DNA of 64,000 nucleotides from Isoetes taiwanensis (taxonomy: Eukaryota; Streptophyta; Lycopodiopsida; Isoetales; Isoetaceae). Below the pieces are notes generated by a model. It had not been told where the DNA came from and ran no database searches. It saw only the letters and a program-made list of their open reading frames with translations. The position numbers were made by a program, and so were the translations under genes. Location: positions 6,230,432-6,294,431 of the forward strand of contig JAJEKV010000062.1 in assembly GCA_021234155.1 (NCBI GenBank). Reading direction: 5' to 3'. Of the stretch, positions 11,930-51,132 are shown piece by piece. How positions within the stretch are numbered: the first letter of the stretch is position 1; every line of letters starts with the position of its first letter.

Positions 11930-12660
11930 TGTTGTTTTTATACTTGAAATAGTCAAAAGAACTTCAAATAATGATTGTTCCACCAAATTTGTTAACAACT
12001 TGACTTGACACTTGTATTTATTTTCTCAATGCATAGTCCAGGTTCATGGAGCCACAATTTGGTCTCTAATCCAAGAACCTTGAAATATGATTAAACCACA
12101 CTAAGAATACAAGTTTATAATCAAGTCAACACCACTGGCTTTGGAGATACTTCAACTAGTTGAATAACTAAGTTAAGTTATTCAAATAACATCTTCAGCA
12201 AACAACAAGCTTATAAACTATAATAAACCATTGATGTTACTGTAGCAAAGTTATTGTAGATCTGGGATTGACCCAATTACTGTAGGATGTTTGACCCGGC
12301 CGGATTCAACCCTAATCGCATCGATCTGTCCTCTGCTTGCTTGATGTTCACATTCTTCGTCTTTGTTTCTTGATTTATCTTCGAGATCCGTCGGTTTCGC
12401 TGTGGATTGAGTTTCTAAACTGAGAAAAACAATCGAGCTAATATCCCACATGCTTAGAGTACTTTTCGAGCTCCTCAACCATTGAACTTATTATTTCGTG
12501 CTTTTTCAATAACCTTAGCAAAACTAGTTCACCAAGTAAACCTAAGATCAAATCATGAACATAGTCTAGTCTCTGACCCTGCAAGTACATCATGAGTTGA
12601 TCTGGCAACCTCTGTAGGCTGTAGAGTTTATTTGAACTTATTACATGACAACTTACTTCA
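11930..12660 (-). repeat. Copia A 3' LTR (complete)
   Basis: It is 731 bp with TG...CA ends. The five bases before it, CCTCT, recur at 51373-51377. Its first 264 bp match 15292-15555 with about seven differences; its last 240 bp match 51133-51372 with three. Confidence 0.93.
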
Positions 12661-15555: not shown

Positions 15556-17146
15556 TGTGACGTTCCAAGTATTTATACGGTATACGTATAAATATACTGA
15601 CACGTCACCCAGTAAAGGTACGCCACCATGGGGTATTGCAACCTAGGGGGTTGACCTAAAAGGGATTAAATTATGCTAATTTAATCATTAAGGATAATAA
15701 CCTATAATTAAGGAATTAATACCTAAGTGGGTTAATTAAGTTAATTAATGGATTAGGAAGGCGCCACTTGGCCAAACTCGATTGGCTAGCATGGGAATGC
15801 TAACTTGGGCCATCAAGGTGGATCACTACCCCCATCTCACCCAAAATCGACCCAGAAGAAGGAGCAGCTGAGCGCCCAAGTACCTGGAACTGTTGCTGAT
15901 CACCCCGTGGTTGTTGAACACCAGATTACTGAGAGATGGAAGCGCCTCATGACAATGGATCAAGCTGGAACTCGGGTTAGTCGTTAATCTAGTGATATCT
16001 TTAAGGCTAGCATTCAGTTAGGTCCTTTGAGTCTTCTCTGGTTGTTTTACTTAGGATTAACCCTTCTTTGGTATCTAAGATTACATTTCAATTATGGATT
16101 ATGTTATGATGGATGGATGTGTATGAGAAAGTAGCTCTGTTAAACTTCCATAAAGCAGGGATTAGAGGGGGGTAGAGACCTCTGTGCCATATGCTTTAGT
16201 ATGCTCCTAGTAGCTCCTTTGATTCCCAATTGATGCGGCCTGTGCACAAGAGACCATCGAGTCGTGGATGCTATGGAATTGCTTAGCACCAGATAAGGGA
16301 CGCAGCGGTGAAGTGGGGGAGGGGTCTTGCACGAACATAAAAGGCTCCTGAGACTCCTACAGTGGGCTAGGCCTGATAGCCGATCACGTAGAGGGCCGGG
16401 TATGGGTCTGACACTCCCTGGGTGCAGAGGTGTGACCCGTATGGGGCACCCTGTGCTTTGAGTAGATTTAGGGTGAGTAAGTTGGGTACGGATGCGGGGG
16501 TCGCTGATGCGGCACATATTCTCTAGCTCACCCATGGAACCACTGTGATCCTGGAAGGGGACACTTCCCTGACCTGCCTCATCGGAAGGGGCTTCATGAA
16601 CCCTGGAGCAGGCTCGAAGGGTGATACCTTGAGTCTGCGTATCCGGAAGGCTATAGTGATGCCATAGCATGATTGGACTCATCTGCAAAGTGTGCACAGG
16701 AGGGGCGGATGGAGTGGACAACCCTAGCCGATGTTCTATGCCAGCCAACGCCATGTCAAGATTCGGTCTGCTGATCTCTTGAGACCTAGCCGTCAGTCGA
16801 TCCTCACTGGAGTCTGAGCCGGGATAGAACCATGGGCTTGGGGTGTTTCCCTAATATTAAATGCATATTCTTTGTTATTGTCACTTGGATGGATGTGCCA
16901 CCCTTCGTGGTGGTATTTTATGATATGATTATGCTGTGTGCTAACCTTGTATTCACGCTTCCGCGACATAGGAGCCCCATTGAAGGCGTGGGCCGAATGA
17001 CCCCTCTGTGTCCTTCACTCGAGCATCTCTCTATAGATGGCCCGAGTTATATGGAGGGCCCTGCTAGTGGCGAGTTGGTCGCCATGGGAGGGGAAAGTCC
17101 CCGTATGTATACGTCCGAGTGCCGTATATGTTCAGGGAGCGTCACA
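15556..17146 (+). repeat. Chromovirus C 5' LTR (1591 bp)
   Basis: It begins TGTGACGTTCC, ends GAGCGTCACA, and is followed at once by a Met-tRNA primer site. It shares blocks with the inverted LTR at 28946-30521, for example GTGTGCAYAGGAGGGGCGG and AGTGGACAACCCTA, but is well diverged from it overall. No coding sequence; any long frames inside are chance. Confidence 0.9.
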
Positions 17147-17147
17147 G

Positions 17148-17160
17148 TGGTATCAGAGCC
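17148..17160 (+). promoter_or_regulatory. Chromovirus C primer-binding site
   Basis: TGGTATCAGAGCC, one base after the LTR, is a perfect match to the 3' end complement of plant initiator-Met tRNA. This fixes the LTR boundary and the plus orientation. Confidence 0.93.
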
Positions 17161-18224
17161 GTGATTTCGGTTACTCGAAATCATAGCACTGACCAAACCC
17201 TAACTCGTTAGTTCGGTAGTTAGAGTTTGGTCCTGACTTGGATGTAGAATATTCCAACCGTGCAGGATGATTCCCCACAACATGACCACAATTGAAGGCA
17301 TATGCAAGCAAAATTTTATATACAAAGTAAGGATATTTGTAAAGAACTATAGTTTTATTAAAGAAATTCTGTGTTTTTCTCTAAGCTCATAAAAGAAACG
17401 GGTCTATCTATAACGATTTGTAAATTATAGAATGGAAAACAATATGTTGTATGAACTTAAATATTGAATATTTATTCAAATCAACATCACTGTGTAGAAG
17501 CATGCCTTTGGGGCCAAAATGTTGAAATGCGTAGTCTTGCTACAAATTGCAAAATGCACATCTGCCAAAAGCAATGCATAAAATTAAAGTATTGTCAAAT
17601 GGGCAACCAGATCTCCCTATCGTGAATGCAATATATTAAGTTACAAAAAAAAAAGAAAGATGAATTGTTTAGCTCTTTGATGTGTGGTTTTGTGCTAGGT
17701 TAATGTAATAGATTGTAAGTTCTTAAGAAATTTAGGGCGACTGGAGGACCCAAGTTTGGAAGGGCCATAACTTTTTGTAGGTAGCTTGGATGGAGGCGAA
17801 AATGGCTCCAATGGATCGGGCACCTCTCAAATACAGTGAGGGGGGAAGCGGCGTCTCGAGGGCGGAGCGATCAACGCGTAGGCCGAAAAGTCAAAAGGAA
17901 TTTGTCGTAGATGCGCGAGGTGTTTCTTCGGCGGAGTTAGGGCGTATATACTTCCTTGGCCTTATCGGTTCAGCGTATTTTTATACGCACCAGATTTTTT
18001 TTTCTTTTTTTTTTTTTTTTTTAAATTTCGAAAATTTTAATAAAAAAAAAGTTAAAAGTTAAAAATTCAAATTTGAGTCGTTTTTTTTTAAAGTGTGTTT
18101 CTTTGCACGACCTCCTACCGCCATAGCCGCCGGACTAGAGCTCCTTTCCCGCCATAGCTGACCTCCACGGCTACCCCGCAACTACCCTAAACCCCTAGCG
18201 CCCTCGCCTACTCCCTAGCGCCAC
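17161..18224 (+). other. Chromovirus C leader, no clear gene
   Basis: This 1.06-kb untranslated-looking region lies between the primer site and ORF1. It has an A run near 17645-17655 and a T run near 17996-18021. A long leader before the first ORF is common in plant gypsy elements that carry extra ORFs upstream of gag. Confidence 0.6.
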
Positions 18225-18994
18225 TTGTTTAAGCTTGAGCGCCCTACTTCTTCATCCTTGTTGTCCATCGCCAGTGCCATGATGCCGCGCTTCAAGCTGA
18301 CCGTCGACCTAAAGAAGATGAACGTCTTCCAACTCTTTAGCGTCCTACTAGACTATCTCTTGGTGGAAAACCCTATGGTCGACACTGTCCTAGACCTTTT
18401 GGTGAAGCACTTTATTGAGGGCCGTAGAATCCCTTACCCCATTTTTCATTTCAATGACCGCTTTCTTATGAAGCTCAATGCTGCGGACCAACCCTACACC
18501 CTTGTAGAGCAGCCTGACCAAGCCTGGGCCCTTGTCAAGTTTTACCCACTAGCCAGCGAGGAGGAAGATCCCGCGGAGCTTATCTGGACAGAGGCCCAAC
18601 AGATTCAGCACCTTGCTAGGGTAGAAGACCTTCAACAAATAGCTAGTGCCCTACCAGAAGAGCGGGCCAACAGTTTCTATTACCTTGGTAAAGGCCATGT
18701 ACTTATGTACAGGGACCATTACAACCTTCCTACTTTCTTTTGGAACGAAGAATTATATGCCTTTGTTTTTGAAAATGTTCCACCTAGCTTTACCCAGGAT
18801 CGCATGGACCTTGTGCAAGCGGACATGCAGGCTCGCCCGGCCCGGTACCATACGGAGATTGCCAGACGCATACAAGCGCGTTTGGACAAAGAGGCCCGGG
18901 CTGCTGAGAGAGAGAGGCTTCGTAAAGAAGAGGAGGATGCCCAAAACCAGCAGGGCGGGGACCAGCAGATGGATCAGCAGGAGGACCAGCAAGT

Positions 18995-19592
18995 TGTTAA
19001 ATTTAAGAACAATTCTTCTTGTACAATGGTTTCTACACCCTTGGTCAAACAAAGAACACCTTCTTCTAGAATCAAACTTTAAGCAATGGATACACAAGTC
19101 AGCATAACCTTTGAACCTATAGAATATTTCAATCAATAAACCATAGGAATTATAATAGAGAGTTACTGTTCATTCGTGCATTGACTCAGACACTGTAGAC
19201 GTATTGACTGGAGATCATTCAACAATGGTTCGATCTTTAAATTCAATCCATGCCCCAAGCCTTGCCGGAATTGCCTGTAATTTCATCTCTGTAGTTTGTT
19301 ACAAGTTTTCTCAATATGTACAGCGATCGGATCGTCGGTTTAGGCTCCCGAATCTGCCGATCATGAGCTGGAACATTTTAAATGGTTTTGGCTCCATTTC
19401 GGTAGCCTTAACCGTCTCAATAAATTTAGAAACAATATTATACCATGGTTCCATGGTTTCAAGTTTAATATTTACACAAGTAGCTAGGCCATCGATAAGT
19501 TTCTCTTTGACCTAGTTAGTATGCTGGTTCCCATGGTTATATGATAAACTTCACCTAGAAATATATGATGAACAACTTCTTAAATCCCAACA
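18995..19592 (-). repeat. Copia B 3' LTR
   Basis: 598 bp, TG...CA, preceded by CAAGT. It is about 98% identical to the other LTR by eye. Confidence 0.95.
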
Positions 19593-19664
19593 CTCCTCCT
19601 TCATCATATATTTCTGCATCTTTCTGAAACATGGTACAGTTCCAACTCCATTCACTGTAAATTT

Positions 19665-22067
19665 TTAGCTGCCTTTTTCATCATGAACATTTTCTCCTGT
19701 AACATTCATCTGCTGCTTAAATTTTGTGAATTTGCTTTCAACAAGAGCTTTTGTGAGAATGTCTGCTGTCTGATTCGTTGTATGAACATAACTCATCTGT
19801 ATATAACCTTTAGCTGCCAAATCCCTTATAAAATGAACATTCAGTTCAATGTGTTTGGTCTTGTCATGATCTACAGGATTTTTTACAATCGCCATACAAC
19901 TCTGACTATCAGTGAAAATGTGTGTTGGTTTTTCTTGACCACAATCCAACTCATTCATTAGCCTTCTTAACCATGCAATCTCTTTGGCAACCAGGGATGC
20001 AGCCACATACTCAGCTTCAGCTGTGGACATTGCTATGGCTTTCTGCTTTTTTGTTCTCCATGCTATAGTGCCACCTCCTAACATTACTACATATCCTGAT
20101 GCAGACTTTTTGCAGCTTAAATCTCCTCCCCAGTCAGCATCACTAAAAGCCTCCATTGTCAAGTTTGTTGAACTGTAAGTTAGGCCATTGTTCATAGTAC
20201 CTTTTAAGTACCTAAGTACCCTTTTTCCAGCTATCCAATGCTGCTTGCTAGGATTGTGATTTCTTCTGCTAAGGATATTAACAGCATATGCAATATCTGG
20301 CCTTGTGTTGTTTGCTAAGTAAAGCAAGCATCCAACCAGAGCTCGATAAGGAATTTCCTCCATTTCTTTTCTTTCAGTTTCTGAAATTTCTTCTTCTGCA
20401 GTCAGCTTATGACCTGGAACTATTGGGGTCTTAACAGTGTTGGACTGATCAAGATTGAACCTTTTCAGCATATTATCTATATGTCTATGTTGTGTGAGCT
20501 TCAAAATCTTGTCCTGCCTGTTTCTTGTGACTTCTATTCCAAGAAAATGTTTTAACTCTCCAAGATCTGTCATTCTGAACCTGCTCTTAAGTATCTCTTT
20601 GCAATGATTCAAACATGACTTGCTGTTTGCAAACATAATGCAGTCGTCCACATAAAGGGCTATTATGCAGTATTCTCCTTCATTTTTGAACTTGTATAAG
20701 TTACCATCATTTTGTAATTTTTCAAACTTCTGTTCTCTGAGATACTTGTCAATGAAATTGTACCATTCCCTGGGTGATTGCTTTAGGCCATATACAGCCC
20801 TATTCAATTTCCATATTTTGTTTTCTCCTTGCTCAAAGCCAGCTGGTTGCCTGAGGTATACATTCTCCTCCAATTTTGCATTTAGGAATGCAGTCTTCAC
20901 ATCCATATGATGCACTTCCAAGTCCAGAGCATTGGCTATTGATAACAGCATTCTAAGACTAGTTAATTTGACAATTGGGGAGTAAGTCTCCTCATAATCT
21001 TCTCCCTTTTTCTGGGTAAATCCCTGAGCCACTAGTCTAGCCTTGTGTTTCAAACTGCCATCTGCATTTGTCTTTAACTTGAAAAGCCATTTGCTGCCTA
21101 TTACATGTTTGTCTGCAGTGTTTTCCACAATATCATAAGTATGTGTTACCTTAAAAGAGTCCATCTCCTCATTCATTGCATTGATCCACATTTCTCTGTC
21201 TGAACTAGTCAACACCTCCTCATATGACCTCGGAACACTATCATCTTCTGTTATGCTCAGAATCTGATCATGATCTACATGTAAACCTTGTAATCTTCTG
21301 CTCTTCCCTGTCTCAGTCCTGCCATATCTGTCCATGTCTATGTGAGTGTCCTCTAACAGTTTGTCTGTCCTTTGTTTCTCAACTTGGTTATCTGGTTGCT
21401 CTTCATGTTCATCTGCTGCACTTCCTTCTTGAATATGCTCAGCTGCAGTTTCAGTTAGATTATCATCCTTTGATGAGTCATTATCATCTAAGTCTAACTT
21501 TGTGAGATCCTTGACCTGATTTTCCATTTGTTTTGCTGCTCTTTCCTGCTTATCAATGTCTGCTCCTTTTGTTTCATAGTTTCTCATTCTGTCCTTGTAC
21601 ATAATATTCTCGTTGAATAAGACATCTCTGCTAATAATTATATGCTTAGTGATTGGGTTATAAATCCTATAACCTTTTGCCTCCTCGTCATACCCTACTA
21701 AATAACCTACTTCAGCTTTGTTGTCTAACTTCTTCCTTAACTCATGAGGGATGTGAACATAAGTTAAGCATCCATACGTTTTGAACCTATCATAATCAAT
21801 CTTTTCATCATTATTAAACCAAAGGTTTTGAGGTACATTACCTTTAATGGCAGCAGTAGGAAGTTTGTTTTGAACAAGTGTGGCAGTTTTCAAAGCCTCC
21901 TCCCATAGATAGTTTGGAAGACCACTTTGTTTGATCATAGACCTAACAGCATCCATGAGTGTCCTATTTTTCCTCTCGGCCACTCCATTTTGTTGGGGGC
22001 TAAACCTGCAAGTCATCTGCCTTTTAATGCCATTAGCAATGCAAAACAGTCTAAATTTTGTGGACAA
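19665..22067 (-). CDS. Copia B pol, second part: integrase end, RT, RNase H
   Basis: The 800-codon frame is open from about 22285; its first Met is at 22067, but translation would come from the upstream gag-pol frame. It starts in the integrase core after the second Asp (RSDRGGEYLS lies just upstream), with QNGVAERKNRTL supplying the Glu. A copia integrase C-terminal region and an acidic linker follow. RT has the KARLVAQGFTQKKGEDYEET motif, MDVKTAFLNAKLEENVYLRQ, and the catalytic YVDDCIMFA. RNase H has AFSDADWGGD, STAEAEYVA and HIFTDSQSC. It ends just before the polypurine tract. It copies element RNA into DNA and integrates it. The sequence is whole apart from the junction frameshift. Confidence 0.95.
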   Translation of the reverse strand: MSTKFRLFCIANGIKRQMTCRFSPQQNGVAERKNRTLMDAVRSMIKQSGLPNYLWEEALKTATLVQNKLPTAAIKGNVPQNLWFNNDEKIDYDRFKTYGCLTYVHIPHELRKKLDNKAEVGYLVGYDEEAKGYRIYNPITKHIIISRDVLFNENIMYKDRMRNYETKGADIDKQERAAKQMENQVKDLTKLDLDDNDSSKDDNLTETAAEHIQEGSAADEHEEQPDNQVEKQRTDKLLEDTHIDMDRYGRTETGKSRRLQGLHVDHDQILSITEDDSVPRSYEEVLTSSDREMWINAMNEEMDSFKVTHTYDIVENTADKHVIGSKWLFKLKTNADGSLKHKARLVAQGFTQKKGEDYEETYSPIVKLTSLRMLLSIANALDLEVHHMDVKTAFLNAKLEENVYLRQPAGFEQGENKIWKLNRAVYGLKQSPREWYNFIDKYLREQKFEKLQNDGNLYKFKNEGEYCIIALYVDDCIMFANSKSCLNHCKEILKSRFRMTDLGELKHFLGIEVTRNRQDKILKLTQHRHIDNMLKRFNLDQSNTVKTPIVPGHKLTAEEEISETERKEMEEIPYRALVGCLLYLANNTRPDIAYAVNILSRRNHNPSKQHWIAGKRVLRYLKGTMNNGLTYSSTNLTMEAFSDADWGGDLSCKKSASGYVVMLGGGTIAWRTKKQKAIAMSTAEAEYVAASLVAKEIAWLRRLMNELDCGQEKPTHIFTDSQSCMAIVKNPVDHDKTKHIELNVHFIRDLAAKGYIQMSYVHTTNQTADILTKALVESKFTKFKQQMNVTGENVHDEKGS

Positions 22068-22282
22068 ATATTCTCCTCCTCGATCTGACCTTATACACTT
22101 TACTTTGTTACCAGTTTCTCTTTCTACCTCTGCTACATATTGTTTAAAGGCTTGTAATGCTTGAGATTTTCTTGCAAGGCAGTAAACTTTGCATTTTCGA
22201 GAGTAATCATCTATAAAGGTAATGAAATACCTTTTATTTGATCTGCTCCTTATGTTCAGAGGTCCACAAAGGTCTGTATGTA

Positions 22283-23899
22283 CTAATGTTTAGCTCTATT
22301 TGCTGACTTCTTGAATGGCAGCCTGTTTATTTTACCAAGCATGCATCCTTCACACATAAGTTTGTCTGACTTGTCATCTCTGCAAGAAATCCATCCCTTT
22401 TTTGCCAAGTATTTAATATTGTTGCAATGAGTGTGAGCTAACCTGTTATGCCATAACTCTGTATCAGAATTAACAATGCAATTTATGCTACTTTTAATTG
22501 CTCCCTCCATTTGAAATAGATTACCAAACCTTTTGGCATAAAACTTCAATATATTATCAAGATAAATACTACATCCTTTGGAATCAAAGTTTATCTTGTA
22601 TCCCAAGTCAACTAGTTGACTAACTGAGATCAAGTTTTTGATCAAAGTAGGCACACACAAAACATTTTCTATGTCAACAACATTTCCATCTAAATCTATC
22701 AGCTGCAATAATCCAGATCCTTCAGCAAGTTGCACTTCTCCATTTCCAACTTGGATTTTGCTCTTTCGAGTAGCATCAATTGTTTGGAGTAGATCAGTAG
22801 TTTGAACTACTGATCTCTCAGCTCCACTATCAACTACAACAACATCATGCCTTTTATTAGTTTCAGAATTTGCATTTTGTGCTACCAACAAGTTATTTAC
22901 CTCATTCTCATCTTGGGACTCCTCTTTGTTTGTTTCTTCAGTTGCCTTGGTAATGTGAACACCTGCAGGTCTGCTACCATCTTTTCTTCCAACACCTCTT
23001 CCTCCCCTAGGAGTTTTTCCCCTTCCTCTCCCTTGACTGTAATCTTTGGGGGATGAGCATTTGGCTGCCATGTGCCCCTTACCTCCACAGTTATAGCAGT
23101 TAAATTCCCTTTTTAGTTTAGGGCATTGGCTTTTGAAATGACCATTCTCATGGCAATAATAGCATGTAATCTGCTTCTTTGCTCCAGTGAGAAGTATTTC
23201 AGCAGCATCCTCTCCTTCCTTTAATTTCTTTTGCTCAAATTCTGTTCTCAACACTTTTTCAGCTTCTTCTCGTGTTTTACACATATTCCTTATGAATAAT
23301 CCTAGTTGTTCATTGTCAATGGCTCTAGAAATTTGTAAGACTTGACTCCTTTCTGACACATTTACTGCAGCTGCTGACAGGTCAGCAATAATATTATCAA
23401 ACTGGTTAAAGTATTCTGATACATCCCCTTCTACTTGAAGCTTTAAGCTTCTTAGTTCATTTTCCAATAATTCAATCTGTGAAGAGGTCTTCTCCTCATA
23501 GCTCTCAAGTAGAAACTTCCACATCTGCCTAGGACTTTTATCTCTCAATTTAAGCCTAATGGTAGAGCTTACCTTGCAAGAGATGATTCCTTGAGCCTCC
23601 TTAATGCGTGCATACAATGACCTTCCTGCCATTACTCCTTGACTGACCACTGTCTCCCTTGCACTTGTATCACCTGCATTAGTTGCATTAGTAGCATTTG
23701 CATTTACTGAACCTTCTGACACAGACCTCTGAATGGTGTTAACTGGACTGCTCAATTCCACACCTTTTGGATCAACAAGATCCCATAGCTCCTCTACTTC
23801 AAGAATGTGTTTAATTGCATCTTTCCATACCTGAAAGCCTGCTCCTCCTTTGAATATATCCACACTGCTCAAAAGACTAGCACCAAATCTGCTTGACAT
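22283..23899 (-). CDS. Copia B gag-protease-integrase, first part
   Basis: The likely start is MSSRFGASLL at 23899; the upstream Met at 23941 overlaps the primer site and is unlikely to be used. Gag capsid comes first, then two CCHC knuckles, CYYCHENGHFKSQC and CYNCGGKGHMAAKC, and an Arg/Gly-rich stretch. Protease has VVVDSGAERSVV. The integrase zinc region is HNRLAHTHC...CEGCMLGK. The frame stops at 22283 because one base is missing near 22287; in the next frame the protein continues LVHTDLCGPLNIRS. Copia elements normally make one gag-pol frame, so this is a disabling or very recent 1-nt deletion, or a sequencing error. Confidence 0.95.
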   Translation of the reverse strand: MSSRFGASLLSSVDIFKGGAGFQVWKDAIKHILEVEELWDLVDPKGVELSSPVNTIQRSVSEGSVNANATNATNAGDTSARETVVSQGVMAGRSLYARIKEAQGIISCKVSSTIRLKLRDKSPRQMWKFLLESYEEKTSSQIELLENELRSLKLQVEGDVSEYFNQFDNIIADLSAAAVNVSERSQVLQISRAIDNEQLGLFIRNMCKTREEAEKVLRTEFEQKKLKEGEDAAEILLTGAKKQITCYYCHENGHFKSQCPKLKREFNCYNCGGKGHMAAKCSSPKDYSQGRGRGKTPRGGRGVGRKDGSRPAGVHITKATEETNKEESQDENEVNNLLVAQNANSETNKRHDVVVVDSGAERSVVQTTDLLQTIDATRKSKIQVGNGEVQLAEGSGLLQLIDLDGNVVDIENVLCVPTLIKNLISVSQLVDLGYKINFDSKGCSIYLDNILKFYAKRFGNLFQMEGAIKSSINCIVNSDTELWHNRLAHTHCNNIKYLAKKGWISCRDDKSDKLMCEGCMLGKINRLPFKKSANRAKH

Positions 23900-23942
23900 C
23901 TTGTTCAAAGAATAATCAAGCACACCAAGCTCTGATACCAAA

Positions 23943-24540
23943 TGTTAAATTTAAGAACAATTCTTCTTGTACAATGGTCTCTACACCCTTGGTCAAACAA
24001 AGAACACCTTCTTCTAGAATCAAACTTTAAGCAATGGATACACAAGTTAGCATAACATTTGAACCTATAGAATATTTCAATCAATAAACCATTGGAATTA
24101 TAATAGAGAGTTACTGTTCATTCGTGCATTGACTCAGACACTGTAGACGTATTGACTGGAAATAATTCAACAATGGTTCGATCTTTAAATTCAATCCATG
24201 CCCCAAGCCTTGCCGGAATTGCCTGTAATTTCATCTATATTGTTTGTTACAAGTTTTCTCAATATGTACAGCGATCGGATCGTCGGTTTAGGCTCCCCAA
24301 TCTACCGATCATGAGCTGGAACATTTCAAATGGTTTTGGCTCCATTTCGGTAGCCTTAACCGTCTCAATAAATTTAGAAACAATATTATACCATGGTTCC
24401 ATGGTTTCAAGTTTAATATTTACACAAGTAGCTAGGCCATCGATAAGTTTCTCTTTGACCTAGTTAGTATGCTGGTTCCCATGGTTGTATGATAAACTTC
24501 ACCTAGAAATATATGATGAACAACTTCTTAAATCCCAACA
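23943..24540 (-). repeat. Copia B 5' LTR
   Basis: 598 bp, TG...CA, followed by the CAAGT duplication. The Met-tRNA primer site lies just inside, at 23940-23925. Confidence 0.95.
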
Positions 24541-24882
24541 CAAGTTGATCAGCAGGGGGATCAGAACGTTGATCAGCAGCAGGATCAAAATGTTGATCAA
24601 AATGTTGACCAAACGGTGGATCAAACTGTTGACCAGCAACAGGATCAACATGTAGATCAGGGCGGAGCCCGGAATAGGAAGAATATGGAGTGGGCTAATA
24701 GGAAGAGGAAGAATACAAAACCTGTAAAGGGGGGTGTGGATTATAAGACCCGATTGCAGAGGGATGCCACCATTGCCAAGAAAACATCGGCTCAGCGACG
24801 CGAGTAGATCGTTCAGCGGGCAAAGCATCCGACAACCGGCGGGAAATCCATCCCAATTTTGAAGCAAACCATCAAGCCACGG

Positions 24883-25182
24883 AAGCCCCATAGATTTCGA
24901 CCGGGCACGGTAGCTCTTCGAGAGATACATAAGTATCAGAAGACTACTGAGCCATTGATTCGTCGGCTCCCTTTTCAGCGGCTTGTTCGGGAAATTGCCC
25001 AGGACTTTAAAACCGACCTGAGGTTCCAAGCTTTTGCAATCCTCGCACTCCAGGAGGCTGCCGAGGCTTACCTCATATAGATTTTGAGCGACGCCAACCT
25101 CTGCGCCATTCATGCAAAGAGGGTTACCATAATGCCCAAGGACCTCCAGCTAGCACGAAGGATCCGAGGGGAATTTCGGTGA
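24883..25182 (+). pseudogene. Histone H3 core within ORF1
   Basis: The frame reads [15 protein letters not shown], then [19 protein letters not shown], then [24 protein letters not shown], a TAG, then [15 protein letters not shown] and QLARRIRGE before the TGA. This covers the alpha-N helix to the C-terminus of canonical H3 (about residues 37-135). Loop 1 ([10 protein letters not shown]) is the same length as in canonical H3, unlike the longer loop of most CENH3 proteins. The tail before it ([16 protein letters not shown]) is basic but diverged from the normal H3 tail. Between LQEAAE and the end about 36 of 44 positions match canonical H3. There is no intron. Confidence 0.95.
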
Positions 25183-25448: not shown

Positions 25449-26831
25449 ATGGCTCACCCAACCCTTCAGCAATGGTATCTGGATGGAGAACACTGGGACC
25501 CTGCGGTCCCCTTTGATCTTCTTCACCCATGTCTCCTCCAGCAAGTAGACCTCATCTCTAACATGCAGGCGCATCCCGATTATGCTGCCTTCCTTCAGTT
25601 CTACAGGGAAGAGATTGTACCCGCATGCGTCTACAACGAGGATGATTCGCAGCTCTACCTCGACTTCCACACCCTGCTCCAGATGTTAGGGGGTGATGAG
25701 CATGCTCGAAATGTCATTAAGGGCATAAGGAGGCGAGCGACTGACCTCCCCATTGTCACAATAGATCGGGACGCTTGTTTCGAGGCCCGATTCGCACTGG
25801 CCATCATTATGGACCAGTATATTGAGGACGAGGAGATAGCTGCTGAGCATTCCTCTACGTCTGTACCTCCTGACCCGGAAGACGACGAAGTAGTCGATGA
25901 ACAGGATTTCGCACGGTGGAGGGAGTTAGCCACCGAGGCGCCCGTAGGAAGAGATAAAGCCCTCAAACTCGAAGGGCTCAACCTCCTTCCTACCGTACTC
26001 TTGAATAACCAAGAGTACCTGATGCTAGAGGACATTATGTGGGCCTATCGCGTTATTGCTGATATGCGGGGCCGCAAAAAGATAGAGGTCCTCTATGATC
26101 TTGCCGAGTACTGCCAGGATGACTTCCTTGACTTTACAACGCCCGTGGTGCAACCGCCGCAAGTCGAGGACTTGCTAGCATACCGGCCAGAAGAGTTACA
26201 GCCCGTGGAGGCCCTTCTGTCACTTCGGCAGACTGATACACCCCAGCCTCCAGAGGAGCATTTTGCAGCTCAGATGCGGCCTCCTTCTGCAAACCAGCCA
26301 TTGCAGATTACGATGGGAGGTATGGATGAGGAGGAGGAAGATCTTTGGGACACCAAGGTGAGTCTTAGAGATGATAAGGAAGAAGCAGGGCAGGAGAAGA
26401 TCCCCGTCAACTTGGAAAAGGAAGCGGAGACCTCCAGGGATCCCCAAATTAGGGCAATGGGCAACCATGTGACCCGATTCTTCCTTTCAGCTTTCCGGCA
26501 AGGTGAGGTCCTATTCTTCTCCAAGAACCTGGGGCCTTATTCTGAAGCATCTTGGTGGGCACTTCGCGCGATATCCACCTTGGCGGGCCATAAGAAGATT
26601 GACTATCACGCCACCACCATTACCTTGGTCCGACGAGATTTGGCTATTGTAGCATTGGGGGACGTGGCAGGCTGTGCCAATATGCGTCTCCTTGTGGCGG
26701 CACCTTTGGCCACTTGCTTGCCACCAGAGGCAGCAGCTCGAGCCGCCCTCTCCGCTAGCCCCAGCACCACTTTGATGCGCTACCGACCACCTCCTCAGCC
26801 CATGGACGAAGAGGAGGAACCTAGTTCTTAA
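25449..26831 (+). CDS. Chromovirus C ORF2: unknown 460-residue accessory protein
   Basis: The frame is intact and starts MAHPTLQQWYLDGEHWDP, 266 bp after ORF1. The N-terminal part is helical. The middle is acidic (DPEDDEVVDEQDF) and a second acidic stretch lies near residue 290-330. A conserved C-terminal block reads RFFLSAFRQGEVLFFS, then WWALRAISTLAGHKKIDY, then TTITLVRRDLAIVAL. This block aligns with RYYLPLLTDGRIALIH / MLIALLG / LVKRTVALSIFDF in the relic at 6067-6709 and with the copy at 48891-50271. It always follows ORF1/H3 (where present) and precedes gag. Conservation across three diverged copies suggests a real element protein. I recognise no domain or function. Confidence 0.75.
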   Translation: MAHPTLQQWYLDGEHWDPAVPFDLLHPCLLQQVDLISNMQAHPDYAAFLQFYREEIVPACVYNEDDSQLYLDFHTLLQMLGGDEHARNVIKGIRRRATDLPIVTIDRDACFEARFALAIIMDQYIEDEEIAAEHSSTSVPPDPEDDEVVDEQDFARWRELATEAPVGRDKALKLEGLNLLPTVLLNNQEYLMLEDIMWAYRVIADMRGRKKIEVLYDLAEYCQDDFLDFTTPVVQPPQVEDLLAYRPEELQPVEALLSLRQTDTPQPPEEHFAAQMRPPSANQPLQITMGGMDEEEEDLWDTKVSLRDDKEEAGQEKIPVNLEKEAETSRDPQIRAMGNHVTRFFLSAFRQGEVLFFSKNLGPYSEASWWALRAISTLAGHKKIDYHATTITLVRRDLAIVALGDVAGCANMRLLVAAPLATCLPPEAAARAALSASPSTTLMRYRPPPQPMDEEEEPSS

Positions 26832-27831
26832 ACATTTTTATTACGCATCTTGTACTGCGTATAGTTGTAAATTTTGATTTTTGTATTTTTGCCATCATAC
26901 AATATACATGCTATTTTCCTATGCTTTATGATTAGTGTATTGTCGAGTACAACTAAAATTGTATTCCAATAATACTTGTTATCTCCTTTGGATTTGGAGT
27001 ATAAGAATTTGTTCAATGTCGTATATTCATTCTTACCGTCTTGCAGACGAGGGACTCGAAGAATTTGAGGAAAGAATCACCAACGAGATACGAAGGGACG
27101 ATCCAGGTCCTCCCGACCAAGATTACGGCCAACGATATGGTGAATATCCAGATCGAGATGATGCCTCCGAAGAAAGTGAACTCGTTGTAGAAGGAGAACC
27201 CTATGATCCAGTTAAAGGATTAGAGATAGTCAACAGTCTCCGAGAACATGCCTTCGAAAATCTGCAACAAACTCTTCGACGAACTTGGGATTATTGGGAG
27301 ATGACAAGGCATGAAGCTTATGCCGATGATGAGCACTTATGGCAAATTTTCTTTGCGCTACGAGATCTTTTTAAGCTCCTCATCATTAGTCCCATCCTGG
27401 ACTACCAGCCTGTCATTATCGGCCTGGGCCCGCTACAAGCTAGTCAGGGTTGTACGGGAGAGCGTTCGCTACTCTATCTTGTACCCTTTTACGCAACCCT
27501 AGGCCCAGTCCCCGCAGTTTTCTATGTTTACGTGTAAGTTGAAGAATTATCCAATGTATAATGCTTACCTCTGTACTGTATAACTTTAAGTTCTTGAAAC
27601 TACCTTCGATGTAATGACCTCCAATGTAATTACCGCTTGACTCATAATGAATATCTTTCCTTTTGTATTCTCTTTATTACTCTCTCTCTTAATACTATAC
27701 GAAATGATCTTGTTGTGAGACTTGATGTCACTGTACTTCTCCTTATATGTTTTTATGGTCAATATAGACGGTGCACGTAACGCCGCCTGACAGACACCCT
27801 CGAATGCCGACTAACACCTGAGCAAGAACTT
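26832..27831 (+). other. Spacer between ORF2 and gag with a small ORF
   Basis: The spacer is 1.0 kb. A frame at 27016-27537 begins MSYIHSYRLADEGLEEFEE, is acidic, and ends before the main gag frame. It may be the N-terminal part of gag separated by an intron or indels: just before 27832 the sequence TPEQEL resembles TPEEEI in the gag of element 2. Otherwise nothing is seen. Confidence 0.4.
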
Positions 27832-28945
27832 ATGTCAATGAAGAGGCAATTAGTCGAGTTACAGGCTTATGTGCTAAATGCCAACCCACCGCAGCATATG
27901 CAAGAGGATGGGCCGGAGTTACCTCCGTTGCCGCCAAGCCCACCACCACAGCAGCCACCTGCACCGCAACCAAGCCCTGTGCCCGCACAAAGAAGGCACC
28001 ATTCCAAACGTCGTCGAAGTTCCTCTAAGGATAGTGCCACATCTTCACAATCGGCTACTTCTGAGTCCTCTGAGTCGTCTATATCATCGGGTGACCATGC
28101 AAAGCGCCGGGACAAGGAGTACCATAAGACGGTTGACACGGCCATAACCAGTATATGGAAAAATAGGAAACTGGCCCAGTTTGATGGGAAATCTAGAGGT
28201 GGGCTGAATGCAGAGTCCTGGTTGGACGAGATGAAGGAGTTTGGGAAATCCTATGGCATGACAGAAAAGGATACAGGAAAGGTTGCCACCACAAACCTTA
28301 CAGGAGCTGCTCGTATTTGGTGGAAGGGCTATGCCAGAGCCAAGCATCTGGACAGAAGCAGATGCAAATTCAGGAAGTTTGCCAAAGCTTTTAAGTCGCA
28401 TTATGTGCCCCGTGCGCACAAATGCCAACAGATTCAGACTTTCTACCGGTTAGAGCAGAAGGGTATGTCAGTTCAGGCCTACACTGATGAATTCATGCGC
28501 TTGAGGCTATATGTACCAGGTATGAATGAAAAGAGGGCGGTGGAGGGCTATATTGAAGGGTTGGCCCCATCAATTAAACGAATGGTTAAGGCCATAGACC
28601 AGAAGTCAGTTGCAGAGGCTGAGGCTAAGGCATTGAGCCTTGAAGAGGATACACCAAGAAGCCAGTACCCGATCCCGCCTCTTTTCCAGCCCACGCTTGG
28701 GTGTACACACCTTACAAGCCCCGTTCACCCAGTCCAGGGCCCTCTCAGCAGAACTCTAACAGCCGCCAGGAAAAGAAAGTCACCTTCAACATGCCCGACA
28801 AACCGAATAATGTTGGTAAGGAAGTTCGAAACCTCTTACAGTCTATTCCCAAAGAGGCCGAAACAGCTACTTGAAGATAAGGCATGTTCTGGGTGTATGC
28901 GGCCGGGCACTTCATGCGAAATTGCCCTTATGTCACCAGGCAGTT
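27832..28945 (+). pseudogene. Chromovirus C gag, cut at the zinc knuckle by element 2
   Basis: A Pro-rich stretch (PPPQQPPAPQPSP) and a Ser/Arg-rich stretch come first. The Ty3-type capsid domain follows, with AARIWWKGYARAK, CKFRKFAKAFKSHYVPR and YTDEFMRLRLYVPGM. A CCHC knuckle begins near 28885 (CSGC then GHFMRNC after a 1-nt shift). Element 2 inserted at 28946, five bases after CPYVTRQ; codons after that belong to its LTR. Gag forms the virus-like particle. The capsid is about 65% like that of element 2 (39039-39674) by eye. Confidence 0.88.
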
Positions 28946-30521
28946 TGTGGCGTCCCCTCCTGGGTATCACGGTGCACTCACCGCATACAAACAGGAGTTC
29001 ATCCCCATACCCGACTCCCATCGTCTGGGGCCCTCCACAATCACTTTGCACCCGTAGCGAGTCCCGGTGGGGATGAAGGGGTCATTTACCCCGTCTCCCT
29101 CGGGGTCTACCTAGGCTGCGAAGCGTAATATACACGTCGAGATATCGACATAATCACATATCCACCTTGAAGGGTGGTGCATCAACATCTGCATAGACAA
29201 TGATCGACATCATACATAAGGGTCCTACCCAAGGCTCAGACTCGAAGGGATGCCCGGCTTGGGTCTCGAGTTCATTCTTCTGGCAGAATTCATGGTAATG
29301 GATTTGGCTGGCATATGAACATGGCATAGGGTTGTCCACTCCATCCGCCCCTCCTATGCACACTTTGCAGAGTAGGCTGAAAAGTGTTGGGACCTGACTG
29401 TAGCCCGCCGGGTACATAGCCAAAAGGGCTATTCCTGGGTTTCATCTTCCCAGTCCCGATGGGGCAGGAAGGGATCGCTCCCTCCAGAGATCTACATGCT
29501 GACTCAAGGTGACTAGAGGGCCACTGCCCGTATTCGACTGGACCCACTGGAAAGTGTACACCACTTCACGGGTGTCGAGTCCATGCCTTACCCGCACTCA
29601 GTGGTAAGCCATTAGACCTAGTCACAAGGATCCCCGGTAGACCTTACACACCAGAGGGATCGTTCAAGAGTCAGGACATGAACCTCCTTCTCAGCCCAGT
29701 CTGGCCCCTTCACCCACAACCAGGTGTGGTTCTTGTCCACAGGCCGTAACTACAGTGTGCTAGAGAGGCTACTCTAGGAGCATCAACTACTAAGCTTTGG
29801 GCCTCTACCCCCCCTTCCCAATACAAGGAGTTCACAGAGATACATCGTCCATATACATCACAGAAGAACTAAAGAACTAGATCTAATCTATATCATAGAG
29901 TTAGGTTCTTTAGTTAATGTCTGGGATGTGAGAACCTAGATGGCTACTATGGCCAATTTAATAGGCTAACCCTACTGATTCTATGACTGGAAGATGGTTT
30001 AAGCTATTAAATTGACTAAATACCTGATCCTTGGGTTGCTCCTCCTGACCTGAGTTCGACCATCCTGCGAACTGCTCGAATCAAGGGAAACTAATGGTGC
30101 AATTCGCTTAGACAGAAGCTGGAAGGCGGGTTTGGCTCCTGGGGCAGCCAAAACATAGCTCTAAAACCCTATGGACGAAAATAGCAAGTTAGGGTTTTCC
30201 TAACCTAAATAGACAAGGGTTTAGGACTAGGGTTTCCAATTATCCCTTTAAGCATGTGGGATAATTGGGAATGGGCCCACTTGCCTTTAATGGCTAGGTG
30301 GCAAAATGTGCCCACATGGAAAAGTGTGCCCACATTAATGTGCACATTGGTAAGTGTGCACATTAATAATAAATGCACATACCTAGCAAGTTGCCCCCTA
30401 GGGGCTACCCACTGGCTACTGCGCCGGCGCATTACGCGTCGGTCGGGGTGGCGTGTATCGCGTGGATCGGCGATGCGATTATGCGATCACGGGACCATTA
30501 TCTTGTCTTTGGAAGGTCACA
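28946..30521 (-). repeat. Element 2 3' LTR (1576 bp)
   Basis: On the minus strand it begins TGTGACCTTCCAA, matching the TGTGACGTTCCAA start of the C LTR. It ends GGGGACGCCACA at 28946, matching GGAGCGTCACA. Internal blocks such as GGAGGGGCGGATGGAGTGG also match. The polypurine tract abuts it. Confidence 0.88.
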
Positions 30522-31401: not shown

Positions 31402-32979
31402 TTAATCTACACAATTCGACATGCCTGAGCCGATTTCTTCGGAGATGACTTTGCCATCCCATTGTTCCATAAACTGTGGGTACTGCTTTTCTAGATCTTT
31501 CTTAAGTACCCATGTCGCGTCTTCCACTGGCAAGTGTTTCCATTTGACCAAGTATTGGAAAAACTCTGATCTCCTCGTTTTCTTGAAGGCTTTATCAAGA
31601 ATCAACTCTGGAACTATTTCCAGCTGCTCCTCCGTCATTTCCAACATTGTTGGAGTGTCCAAGACCTCGTCTGGATTTGGAGTATGCTTCTTCAACAAAC
31701 TTACGTGGAAGACCTTATGAATCTTTAGGTGTGCTGGCAAATCTAGCTTGTAGGATTGATTACCTACTCTCTGGACTATTCTGAAAGGTCCAGCCCACCT
31801 TGCAGCAAGCTTGTTGCAATTGCCGATGCGGAGCTTTGCCTGCTTCACCTTGATCTTGAGCCATACATCGTCTCCAACTCGGAACTCTCTGACTGTTCGA
31901 TGCTTGTCGGCGATGCTCTTTTGTCGACTCCTTGCTGCCAGAAGATACCCTCGAACTTCTTCCACGAGCTGCTGCATGTCGGACAACATCTGCTGCGAAA
32001 CCTCTACTTTTGACACGGGATTGTGCCAAGTGTCTGGAGTTAGGCATTGATAGCTGTAATTGATCATAAACGGCGACATTTGGGATGATTCTTGCTTGGT
32101 GCTATTGTAGGCAAACTCCACCAAGTGAATAAATTCTTCCCACATACCTTGCTTGTTCCAGACATAGTTCCGTAGCATGTCCTCCAGAATCCTGTTGGTC
32201 CGCTCCGTTTGGCCATCCGTCTGAGGATGATATGCCGTGCTCATGGATAGCTTCGTCTGAATCGTCGTAAAGAGGTCTTGCCAAAAGGCACTCATGAACT
32301 TCGGGTCCCTGTCAGATATAATCTCCCTTGGCATGCCGTGAAGCCTGAAGATCTCTTTGGTGAAGAGCTTCGCTGTATCCATAGCGGTATCTGTGGTCCT
32401 GCAAGGCACAAAATGTGCCATCTTCGACAACTTGTCGACCACTACCATTAAAGCATCCTTTCCTCTTACTGTCCTTGGGAGCCCTGTGACGAAATCCATG
32501 CTGATTACCTCCCACTTAGCGTTTGGCACCGCTAATGGCTCCAATGCTCCTGGAATTCGGAGCTGCTCCGCCTTTGTCTGCTGACATAGCTGACATTCCT
32601 TGATGTAGCGAGCTACCTGCTTCTTCATTCCTGGCCAATAATAGCTGCTGCGCACCTTGAAATATGTTTTCATGAATCCCGCATGGCCAGCTATTGGGCT
32701 GTTGTGCGTGTCATGGAGGATCAATTTCCTTACACCTGATGATTCGGGCACACACAACTTGTTCTTATGATATAACAGGTTGCCTTCCTTCTTATAATGT
32801 TTGAAGGCCTCCCGCTCTTTATCTGTTCTAGCCTCCCTAGAGAGGCTTGCCCATACTTCCTTGAAATCCACATCCGTTGGCAAGGACTCTTCAATCTTCT
32901 TACCAAAGTCACTGGAGAGCGTCGAAATTGCATTGCAATGCACTCTAGTTGTCAGGGAGGGGATGCCTTGAAAGCGCAT
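31402..32979 (-). CDS. Element 2 pol, C-terminal part: integrase and chromodomain
   Basis: The 525-codon frame begins in the RNase H/integrase connection. The zinc region has [19 protein letters not shown] and CQLCQQTK. The core has [32 protein letters not shown] and [11 protein letters not shown], giving the D, D, E triad. A GPF-type C-terminal domain follows ([13 protein letters not shown]). Residues about 465-515 form a chromodomain ([31 protein letters not shown]). Integrase inserts the cDNA; in chromoviruses the chromodomain is thought to steer it to marked chromatin. The frame overlaps the RT frame at 32945-32979 by a shift. All key residues are present. Confidence 0.95.
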
Positions 32980-33979
32980 CCGCTACCACATTGAGCTTCC
33001 CGGGCTTGTAAACTATATCAAAGTCATATTCCTCGAGGAACTCCATCCACCTTCGCTGCCTCAGATTAAGGTGTGGTTGCGTGAATACATACTGGAGGCT
33101 CTGATGGTCGGTATCCAATTGGAACTTCCTTCCCAAGAGATAGTGCCTCCAAATTCTTAATGCCCTGACAACCGCAAGCAATTCCTGATCGTGCGTCGGG
33201 TAGCGCATCTCGGCGTCGTTTATCTTCCTGGAATCATACGCTACCACACGCTCTTCTTGCATGAGCACTGCACCTGTAGCTATCTTACTCGCATCTGTGG
33301 CTACAAGCTTATCTTTCTCTGGGTCCGGCAGGGTTAAAACTGGGGCAGTTGTTAAAGCTTCTTTCAATAATTCAAACCCCGCTTGGGCTTTCTTGTGCCA
33401 ATGCTCTGCCCAATCTTTCACCTTCTCCGCCCTCGTCAGGTCTGTTAGAGGGGCCGCTATCTTAGCAAAGTTCTTCATGAACTTTTTGTAGTACCCTGCT
33501 AGGCCAAGGAAACTTCTAACCTCATGCACATTCTTCGGCGCCGGCCATTGGATTACTGCTTCAATCTTGGCGGGATCCGTCGAGATTCCTTCTGCTGAGA
33601 TCACATGACCAAGGTATTCCACCTTCTCCGTTGCGAAGTGGCACTTCAACAACTTGGCGTACAACTGGTGCCTCCTCAACTTCTCCAGCACTCTCCTTAA
33701 GTGTTGTACGTGCTCTTCAAGGGATCTGCTATACACCAAAATGTCATCGAAGAAAACTATCACAAAGGTGTCTAGGAACTCCCTGAAGATGTCGTTCATG
33801 AGCCTCATGAACGTTGCTGGGGCGTTCGATAAGCCAAAAGGCATTATCGTGAATTCATAGTGCCTGTACCACGTTCTGAAGGCGGTTTTATGTATATCTT
33901 CTTCCGTAATCCGGATTTGGTGATAGCCTGACCTTAGGTCGATTTTGGAGAAGACCTTTGCCCCTTGGAGTTGATCCAT
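32945..33979 (-). CDS. Element 2 pol, middle part: RT and RNase H
   Basis: The frame begins exactly at the TIR element edge with [22 protein letters not shown] continues through [19 protein letters not shown] and the catalytic [12 protein letters not shown], then the connection ([19 protein letters not shown]). RNase H has [29 protein letters not shown] and [10 protein letters not shown]. It ends [14 protein letters not shown]; a frameshift then moves to the integrase frame. The first part of RT is at 37982-38640 on the other side of the nested insertion. Confidence 0.95.
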
Positions 33980-33980
33980 C

Positions 33981-39037: not shown

Positions 39038-39038
39038 T

Positions 39039-50997: not shown

Positions 50998-51132
50998 TCA
51001 TTTGGGATCTCCCTTAATTAAACTAGCTAATTGCACGTCCTTCCTCATGAGGGTTACTCGCTTCGCATGAACAGTGCAAGCTGTCGAGTCTTCAAAATGT
51101 TGCACTATCCTCTGCTCAGCCGCTTCCTGCAG
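50998..51132 (-). pseudogene. Element 2 histone H3-like C-terminal fragment
   Basis: The minus strand encodes 44 residues and [19 protein letters not shown], then [18 protein letters not shown], then SLIKGDPK. This is the alpha-2/alpha-3 end of histone H3. About 25 of 44 positions match canonical H3, including LQEAAE, FED, HAKRVT, KD and QLA. There is no stop inside. It starts at CTGCAG exactly where the copia A LTR piece begins (51133), so the N-terminal part was lost in the deletion. It lies upstream of ORF2, as the H3 core does in C. Confidence 0.88.

Follow-up and report, generated by a model that had tools for sequence, protein, structure and literature searches.

Ogre retrotransposons carry an extra ORF before gag, and Ogre/Tat elements form a non-chromovirus lineage without a chromodomain. 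Additional ORFs are also present in other plant LTR elements (PMC7264820), and in the text of a second study most such ORFs have no known domain (PMC9289625). The same study describes orchid Ty3/gypsy elements that carry a 2-ODD/AlkB ORF and reports a screen of 121 angiosperms that yielded 15 extra domains, of which the nine named in the text include no histone. Mobile genomes that encode histones have been described among large DNA viruses, including a bracovirus with an H4, and some of these viral histones are fused to an unknown protein; in the main text of the review that covers them, the words retrotransposon and retrovirus occur zero times (PMC9145170). We found no description of a retroelement-encoded histone in the open-access PMC literature searched. 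LTR elements are known to capture genes, and mobile genomes are known to encode histones; the combination of the two, and a rebuilt histone tail, were not found in the papers searched.

We analyzed a 64,000-nucleotide stretch of the Isoetes taiwanensis genome (contig JAJEKV010000062.1; hereafter, the window) and conclude, with a probability of roughly 0.85, that a diverse chromovirus clade encodes its own H3 variant in the first long ORF downstream of its primer-binding site (PBS). The ORF1 protein carries an H3.3-derived fold at its C-terminus, the histone tail being replaced or split by an element-specific N-terminal domain (N-domain) and a charged, Gln-rich linker. The element resembles plant chromoviruses in its gag-PR-RT-RNase H-IN-chromodomain order, its TGGTATCAGAGC primer site and its LTRs of ~1.6 kb, and differs from them in having three extra ORFs before gag, the first of which is an H3 fusion. 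Like the orchid 2-ODD/AlkB elements, it is a multi-copy gypsy family that keeps a host-type domain as an additional ORF, although both the protein and the element are different. Its chromodomain, seen in the H3-bearing copy L019, places it outside Ogre/Tat, and unlike those and other extra-ORF elements it has an ORF that ends in a histone fold. With the viral histones it shares a mobile genome encoding a core histone, whereas those genomes are DNA viruses. The features of the window copy are collected in Table 1.

Table 1. Features of the H3-bearing chromovirus copy, and of a related fragment, in the window
Feature	Position	Strand	Evidence or remark
5' LTR of H3 chromovirus	15557..17146	+	left end approximate; copia element abuts
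Primer-binding site, TGGTATCAGAGC type	17148..17159	+	sequence
Leader insertion, private to the window copy among those compared	17224..17663		alignment gap versus L014, L015
ORF1 part 1: N-domain into Asp/Gln linker	18279..18992	+	open from 18225
Younger copia element inside ORF1	18995..24540	- (its ORFs)	LTR pair and CAAGT target duplication
ORF1 part 2: remaining Asp/Gln linker and basic tail-like stretch	24541..24804	+	in frame with neighbors; 20/20 copies
ORF1 part 3: H3 fold, H3.3-derived, interrupted by two TAG	24805..25179	+	Pfam, H3.3 alignment
ORF2, 460 codons	25449..26831	+	open in window; at least partial in 20/20 copies
ORF3, conserved from ~27000	26935..27534	+	protein identity to L053, L055
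gag	27832..29076	+	Retrotrans_gag E 1.1e-15, Ty3_capsid 2.7e-15 (Pfam)
Fragment of second divergent H3/CENH3-like element lineage	51001..51132	-	53-58% identity to H3

The original prediction held that a frame between the PBS and gag ends in an H3 core, and both the histone and its placement were borne out. The H3 in the window copy spans 24808-25179 on the plus strand, is recognized by the Pfam Histone model in two halves (E 8e-24 and 1.9e-12) and shares 74% identity with plant H3.3 across 119 alignment columns; a chance match is excluded by the tiny E-values and by the same arrangement in dozens of copies. The prediction further joined an upstream domain, an Asp/Gln-rich repeat and H3 in a single frame across a copia insertion. 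The register is indeed kept: the frame at 18225-18992 is in phase with the linker, the Asp/Gln repeat runs in one frame on either side of the copia element that splits ORF1, and the CAAGT duplication (18990-18994 and 24541-24545) falls within the repeat. The frame is not continuous, however, as two in-frame TAG codons, at 24805-24807 and 25078-25080, leave this copy without an open H3; the second of these stops is found in none of 20 other copies. With its ORF1 broken by both the insertion and the stops, the window copy is dead. The copia LTRs (598 bp) differ by 13 mismatches and are 97.8% alike. Upstream, 15557-17223 aligns collinearly, at 91%, with the corresponding stretch of copies L014 and L015, and the alignment to copies that span the leader ends at 17223 and picks up again at 17664. 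Two further ORFs, absent from the prediction like the stops and the leader insertion, lie between H3 and gag, and the gag frame is broken near its end and just upstream, and truncated by a minus-strand relative.

That the host element is a chromovirus, as had been proposed, is shown by another copy; a tblastn search with the pol of a related element found no pol of the H3 copy within the window. The pol of L019 contains RVT_1 (E 2.2e-37), RNase H, Integrase_H2C2 and Chromo (1.1e-8) domains, with rve at 6.8e-5, below its cut-off, in the order gag, PR, RT, RNase H, IN, chromodomain; an H3-bearing element with reverse transcriptase, integrase and chromodomain is a chromovirus. RT pieces from seven copies are 73-81% identical to that of a chromodomain element at 31402-39758 (minus strand) of the window. 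LTRs, primer site, polypurine tract and gag were all found: LTR pairs of 1.1-1.6 kb could be aligned in four other copies, two of which have a AAGGAGGGGAG purine tract ahead of the 3' LTR. The TGGTATCAGAGC primer site, which we take to be of the initiator-Met tRNA type, recurs upstream of ORF1 in L053, L055 and L057, and also in L054. From PBS to gag, the span is ~4.6-4.7 kb with three extra ORFs (L015, L053, L055).

The simplest dismissal of the H3 would be that a single retrocopying event placed a host H3 mRNA in one element copy, leaving a lone processed pseudogene without meaning. In favor of such an event, the H3 lacks introns and belongs to the host H3.3 type, and the window copy is broken. 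We nevertheless put the chance of it close to nil. No direct repeat of at least 8 bases flanks the H3 and no A-run exceeds 5; neither a target duplication nor a poly-A tail nor a single locus marks it as a processed pseudogene. A DNA query of the 1.66-Gb genome gave 1179 candidates, of which the 40 scored were the window and 39 other places; the genome thus holds no fewer than 39 other close copies, with DNA identities of 87-94%. We fetched the 20 best other copies, and they keep the order LTR/PBS, N-domain, linker, H3, ORF2, ORF3, gag. The co-occurrence of N-domain and H3 between LTR and gag therefore extends to other copies: the N-domain was found in 20/20 (only partially in L022 and L024), the linker stretch in 20/20, ORF2 in 20/20 (a short start only in L010 and L019), the LTR end or PBS in 17/20 and gag in 15/20 (in L014, its end only), all in correct orientation.

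In three of the 20 (L014, L015, L017), N-domain and H3 form a single unbroken frame, so the H3 ends a longer ORF in copies other than the window's; a 1-base deletion changes the final H3 codons of L014. The H3 carries a stop in 4/20 copies and a frameshift in 4/20. The ranking of copies by similarity to the H3 query makes their average state look better than it is. A protein query of the genome gave 5509 candidates, and the best 150 were all scored as matches (150/150); among these, 31/150 lie within a frame of at least 440 residues with the match free of stops, and 12/150 have one stop across 90 residues. With an H3.3 query, 15 host-like genes were followed by a clear gap and then by 135 lower-scoring H3s, of which 13, all that could be read, are of element type. 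Gag alone identified 39 places, of which 15 coincide with listed H3 matches; among eight others examined, five have the H3 and three have none within the 701 bases examined. A lack of H3 in other copies, or the boundaries and poly-A tail of a lone retrocopy, had been named as the outcome that would undo the proposal, and it was not observed: dozens of copies carry the H3.

The layout also extends beyond the window family. Of three loci fetched from other families, L053 and L055 have the whole arrangement with ORF1 as a single open frame, while L054 has a PBS and a frame ending in H3, no ORF2 or gag within 7.5 kb, and a displaced piece of the N-domain. The N-domains of the two families with the common layout are only 33-39% alike, which again counts against a lone retrocopy. 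A second, divergent lineage is represented in the window by the fragment at 51001-51132, which as a query returned 40 matches, the window and 39 other places, at 92-99%. We had considered this fragment to be the terminal exon of a CENH3 gene of the host, with CTGCAG resembling a splice acceptor, and dropped the idea in view of those 39 places, of the complete divergent H3 fold and PBS in L057, and of the broken fold in L056. Damage in this lineage comprises frame changes in L056 and one stop in L057. The multi-copy presence, the constant layout and a single open frame in some other copies are thereby shown.

In the unaltered ORF1 proteins of L053 (410 aa), L055 (414 aa) and L015 (454 aa), the Pfam Histone domain sits at the C-terminus (E 1e-41 to 4e-34 on the three full proteins), and the best PDB matches of the H3 part are H3.3 and H3.1. 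Neither the window family nor any of 13 other element H3s has the canonical H3 tail up to residue 36; the linker stands in its place. Only ARTK-like starts remain of the tail in some of them: ORF1 begins MARTKGTK in L055, so that one family keeps the ARTK start, and MARTKQTARK (L057) or MARTKQTVRK (L056) in the second lineage. We read ORF1 as an H3 with ~300 residues inserted into its tail. A statement that K9 is lost in all element H3s was dropped, as ARTKQTARK is intact in the second lineage and the tails of the first cannot be aligned unambiguously. The N-domain has no relatives in Pfam, PDB or a search of 5.8 billion proteins (one search scored 783 candidates, none of which passed), nor in a viral_contigs search. 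A protein search with the window H3 gave 7982 matches; among the 120 listed are normal H3s and predicted H3 fusions of other organisms, none of them above 82% identity, and the candidates have at most 373 residues, fewer than the whole ORF1. Single-sequence structure models were poor, at pLDDT 38 and 53. In the leaders of six copies, 4-11 ATGs lie between PBS and ORF1, which complicates the translation of ORF1 from genomic RNA.

A second alternative is that the H3 is a functionless passenger, captured once and spread by hitchhiking on successful elements. LTR elements do capture pieces of host genes (PMC7264820), and many of the copies decay. However, a passenger would decay while gag persists, and in 20 copies the pooled pN/pS is 0.25 for H3 and 0.20 for its core, against 0.24 for gag. 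The other parts give 0.24 (N-domain), 0.29 (linker) and 0.26 (ORF2, 18 sequences); all of these parts are under purifying selection comparable to that on gag. We observe dN < dS in 207/210 pairs for H3 and in 210/210 for its core; element H3 pairs with pN = 0 had been chosen by protein score and are biased. Replacements in the window H3 core are conservative, the observed BLOSUM mean being attained in 7/4000 neutral simulations. Purifying selection is accompanied by deep divergence within the lineage and by recent transposition, the latter indicated by LTR pairs that differ by 3.2-4.2% in four copies. As the fold has also been kept over this long divergence, the passenger explanation is very improbable.

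The retained residues bear on what the fold does. In all 18 element sequences compared, 59/87 fold positions equal host H3.3, and R49, R63, R69, R72, R83, H113, K115, T118 and D123 are unchanged in 18/18. Among H3.3-type positions, H87 is present in 3/18 and L90 in 18/18; V89I is found in 17/18, and T107A and I124L in 18/18. D77E was discarded as an element-specific change, as host H3 already has E77. The six aligned element H3s that cover loop 1 match H3 in its length, by comparison with a CENH3 sequence; CENH3s have a longer loop 1 than H3. The element H3s thus share with host H3.3/CENH3 the fold, the H3.3-type positions and, in the second lineage, the MARTKQTARK start, and differ in ~300 tail residues and in having no CENH3-type loop-1 insertion in the aligned families.

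A further alternative is that the fold never becomes part of a nucleosome and acts purely in binding, for example to H4 chaperones or to Gag/integrase, or diverts histone chaperones and silencing enzymes as a decoy. Changes in the fold are concentrated at 86-89 and 101-107, and positions 87-90 are known to govern chaperone choice; the long tail domain may also impede packing. Against this stand the unchanged residues in 18 sequences, which include DNA-facing arginines (R49, R63, R69, R72, R83) and dimer-face residues, and the existence of long-tailed cenH3s (PMC9145170). We regard a purely non-nucleosomal role as possible but doubtful.

Still less likely is that the ORF1 protein compacts element cDNA inside the particle rather than host chromatin. 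A nucleosome requires H4, and H3 without it forms none; Pfam recognized no second histone in ORF2 or ORF3. For such packing speak the position of ORF1 beside gag, a selection level like that of gag, and the fact that some DNA viruses encode histones (PMC9145170). ORF2 had no relatives in Pfam, a PDB profile search or a protein search. A histone end at 26590-26660 of ORF2, suspected by eye, was dropped, as neither Pfam (to E 10) nor the PDB profile search backed it, and a model (pLDDT 38) likewise gave no support. ORF3 is 62.8% and 71-76% identical at the protein level to those of L053 and L055.

Returning to the H3 variant as an encoded element protein, we consider it close to an even bet that ORF1 protein pairs with host H4 and enters chromatin as a replacement H3. 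Such placement would display the N-domain on nucleosomes, where it may aid the element. The most likely aid, tentatively, would be tethering or guiding of the integration complex; alternatively, though we find this somewhat doubtful, the element's own new DNA might be packaged into nucleosomes that lack the usual tail marks. Less likely are DNA packing in the particle and a dominant interference with host H3. A retroelement lineage may have evolved its own nucleosome component, an H3 with a tail rebuilt around the element-specific domain and placed on the element's new DNA or on chosen target chromatin, that overrides silencing marks or steers integration, a reading we hold at less than even odds. 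It would have lasted long enough for the N-domain to fall to 33% identity with the fold nearly fixed.

An H3 of this kind would add retroelements to the histone-encoding mobile genomes, which in the review of viral histones are DNA viruses (PMC9145170). The material is at hand in natural open ORF1s and several diverged families within a single genome, and the element H3 would be a ready tool for studying the role of the H3 tail in silencing and target choice. LTR retrotransposons are restrained via host histone marks, and an element with its own H3, seen at well over a hundred of the places scored, would be a new move there.

The dead chromovirus copy in the window carries a first open reading frame (ORF1) in which an element-specific N-terminal domain (N-domain) and an Asp/Gln linker precede a C-terminal histone H3 fold, with two further frames, ORF2 and ORF3, between H3 and gag. 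The original prediction of a single frame from N-domain through repeat to H3, between primer site and gag, stands as to register, which is the same across the inserted copia element, but not as to integrity, as the H3 carries two TAG codons (24805-24807 and 25078-25080). The join across the insertion is continuous as proposed: CAAGT is duplicated, and the frame resumes through the Asp/Gln repeat into H3. Pfam recognizes the two H3 halves at 8e-24 and 1.9e-12, and the nearest solved structures are H3.3 and H3.1. Because three frames lie ahead of gag, gag may be expressed from spliced RNA. A pol belonging to this copy was looked for within the window and none was found. At about 27040-27070, ORF3 continues from a TTGCAG resembling a splice acceptor; the Leu-Ala encoded there also occurs in L053 and L055, loci of other families.

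Features of the H3-bearing copy and a related element (window positions)
Feature	Position	Strand	Remarks
5' LTR	about 15557-17146	+	window sequence
Primer site TGGTATCAGAGC	17148-17159	+	window sequence
ORF1 N-domain	from 18279 (frame open from 18225)	+	window sequence
copia element inserted in ORF1	18995-24540		598-bp LTRs, 13 mismatches; CAAGT duplication
Histone H3 of ORF1	24808-25179	+	after Asp/Gln repeat, same frame as N-domain
ORF2	25449-26831	+	window sequence
ORF3	about 26935-27534	+	window sequence
gag	27832-29076	+	window sequence; frame broken
Related element with chromodomain	31402-39758	-	window

We searched the genome (1,658,258,908 bases in 1110 contigs) with 584 bases of linker plus H3; the best 40 of 1179 candidates comprised the window and at least 39 other places at 87-94% identity. 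The 20 best other copies, fetched at 10 kb each, all have N-domain, H3, and ORF2 in this order and orientation, the N-domain being clearly partial in L022 and L024 and ORF2 limited to a brief initial piece in L010 and L019. An LTR end/PBS is present in 17/20 and gag in 15/20 (one with the gag end only); the copia insertion that separates N-domain and linker in the window is missing from all 20. Neither stop nor frameshift interrupts the 124 H3 codons of 12 copies; four others have a stop and four a frameshift there, and the window's second H3 stop recurs in none of the 20. Three copies keep a single unbroken N-domain-to-H3 frame of 442-477 codons; L014, one of these, lacks a single base, which changes its final H3 codons. 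The predicted co-occurrence of the two domains is therefore seen in every one of these copies. The alternative, a processed pseudogene with its own boundaries or poly-A tail and with H3 missing from other copies, finds no counterpart: all 20 have H3, and the flanks of the H3 contain no direct repeats of at least 8 bases and no A-runs longer than 5. The H3 is not a lone retrocopy.

A protein query (90 residues of the window H3) gave at least 150 matches at 87-100% identity, window included, among the best 150 of 5509 candidates; counted from the listed matches, 31/150 have a frame of at least 440 residues and a stop-free match, and 12/150 have one stop. With a plant H3.3 query, the best 150 of 9103 candidates comprised 15 matches at 97-99% identity and at least 270 bits, then, after a gap down to 193 bits, 135 at 72-87%. 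Six genes of the top group were fetched, one normal H3.3 and five H3.1 (one with a single change). Fourteen of the lower group were fetched, one too short for use; all 13 usable are element-type H3s with a different tail, and the other 122 were classed as such from score alone. Both lists are ordered by H3 likeness. As a control, we searched with gag alone (best 40 of 2849 candidates scored): 15 of 39 non-window places have a same-strand upstream H3 match, 14 within about 5 kb and one at 6.7 kb. For eight of the remaining 24, 701 bases at the expected H3 site were fetched; H3 is present in five of these stretches (one frameshifted) and absent from three.

In L019, an internally deleted H3-bearing copy, the domains downstream of gag are, in order, protease, reverse transcriptase, RNase H, integrase, and chromodomain (Chromo 1.1e-8). 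The LTR pairs of four copies could be aligned along 1.1-1.6 kb, and the longest piece of each alignment shows 3.2-4.2% mismatches; if substitutions accumulate at the rate used for grasses (1.3e-8 per site per year), which may not be this plant's, the pairs would be roughly 1.2-1.6 million years old. The tract AAGGAGGGGAG precedes the 3' LTR in two of these copies; the alignments of the remaining two begin elsewhere and do not show it. By eye, two aromatic cage residues, the first and the third, seem to be missing from the chromodomain of the related element (31402-32979, minus strand); chromodomains without these H3K9me-binding residues are called type II in PMC6317226.

Nei-Gojobori counts over reference-anchored codons, with stops and gaps excluded, gave pooled pN/pS of 0.24 for the N-domain (n=20), 0.29 for the linker (n=21), 0.25 for H3 (n=21), 0.20 for the H3 core (n=21), 0.26 for ORF2 (n=18), and 0.24 for gag (n=12); copies were picked by DNA likeness, with no direct bias toward low pN/pS. 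dN was below dS in 207/210 pairs for H3 and 210/210 for its core, and replacements in the window H3 core are conservative (mean BLOSUM 0.93 versus -0.35 in neutral simulations, 7/4000 as high). The H3 fusion is thus under selection about equal in strength to that on gag. In another family, L047 compared with L039, L041, L042, L049, and L050 gives pN 0.000 and pS 0.21-0.50, biased since these were picked by protein score.

Among 18 element H3s compared, H87 is kept in three and L90 in all; host H3.3 has T31/H87/L90 and host H3.1 A31/S87/L90, so an H3.3-type source fits best. Synonymous differences from the host of 0.79-0.98 are near saturation, and the capture is therefore old. Across residues 45-131, all 18 agree with host H3.3 at 59 of 87 positions, among them the arginines that face DNA and H113, K115, T118, and D123. 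Changes cluster at 86-87 and 101-107; V89I (17/18), T107A, and I124L (both 18/18) are constant. The host H3.1 genes (L033-L038) have L90 and E77, in which they differ from flowering-plant H3.1; the host may thus lie outside the flowering plants.

Three loci from the H3.3 query were fetched with their surroundings. L053 and L055 share the window's primer site and the order ORF1-ORF2-ORF3-gag, with unbroken ORF1s of 477 and 435 codons; identity to the window is 33% and 39% in the N-domain, 48-59% in ORF2, and 76-78% in gag, and the H3 fold is near-canonical despite the N-domain divergence. At L054, the primer site is accompanied by a 245-codon frame that ends in H3 and by no more of the N-domain than a displaced piece; ORF2 and gag are absent from the 7.5 kb examined. 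A long, simple, Arg/Glu-rich repeat lies downstream of its element (oriented 5179-6875). The window family (L009-L028) has two N-domain types, with synonymous differences of 0.57 between and 0.29-0.31 within types; H3, ORF2, and gag do not mirror this split, which suggests that the front module was swapped by recombination. Within type A, synonymous difference is 0.15 in H3 (window 24808-25179), 0.25 in ORF2, 0.27 in the linker, 0.29 in the N-domain, and 0.31 in gag; the low H3 value may reflect conversion, additional constraint, or the use of an H3 query to collect the copies.

ORF1 begins MARTKGTK in L055 and MANTKSA in L053, and the lysine of this ARTK-like start is invariant in 6/6 aligned N-domains. 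A second, divergent lineage is represented by a window fragment (51001-51132, minus strand) and at least 39 other places at 92-99% identity (best 40 of 1019 candidates). In its member L057, the start MARTKQTARK and a divergent H3/CENH3-like fold (49% to H3.3; Pfam Histone 7e-29) share a frame with one stop between; L056 starts MARTKQTVRK, and its ORF1 is broken by frame changes. We read ORF1 as an H3 with some 300 residues inserted in its tail: start and fold would have been retained, with an element-specific domain taking the place of the tail's middle. In the first lineage a few residues carry this reading; in the second it is plain. The second lineage's next ORF is faintly similar to the first's ORF2 (E 0.001-0.003). 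A 240-bp stretch occurs, 98.75% alike, in two unlike contexts (12421-12660 and 51133-51372), the latter copy adjoining the histone fragment exactly.

Among the matches listed, we found no retroelement-encoded histone in the open-access literature, so far as the accessible text extends. In the portions available, PMC7264820 does not use the word histone; in PMC6317226, histone appears solely as the ligand of chromodomains; PMC9289625, which reports 15 extra domains from 121 angiosperm genomes, names nine of them in section 12, none a histone; and the main text of PMC9145170, on DNA-virus histones, mentions neither retrotransposon nor retrovirus.

Our analysis shows that an H3-fold protein is a retained component of the element. 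Pfam, PDB profiles, and the protein database returned no relatives of the N-domain or ORF2, and single-sequence structure models were of too low quality for use. Since interface residues are kept, the ORF1 H3 fold would pair with host H4, placing the protein in chromatin with the N-domain displayed there. The likeliest benefits to the element would be tethering or guiding integration or, alternatively, giving new element DNA nucleosomes that lack the normal tail.
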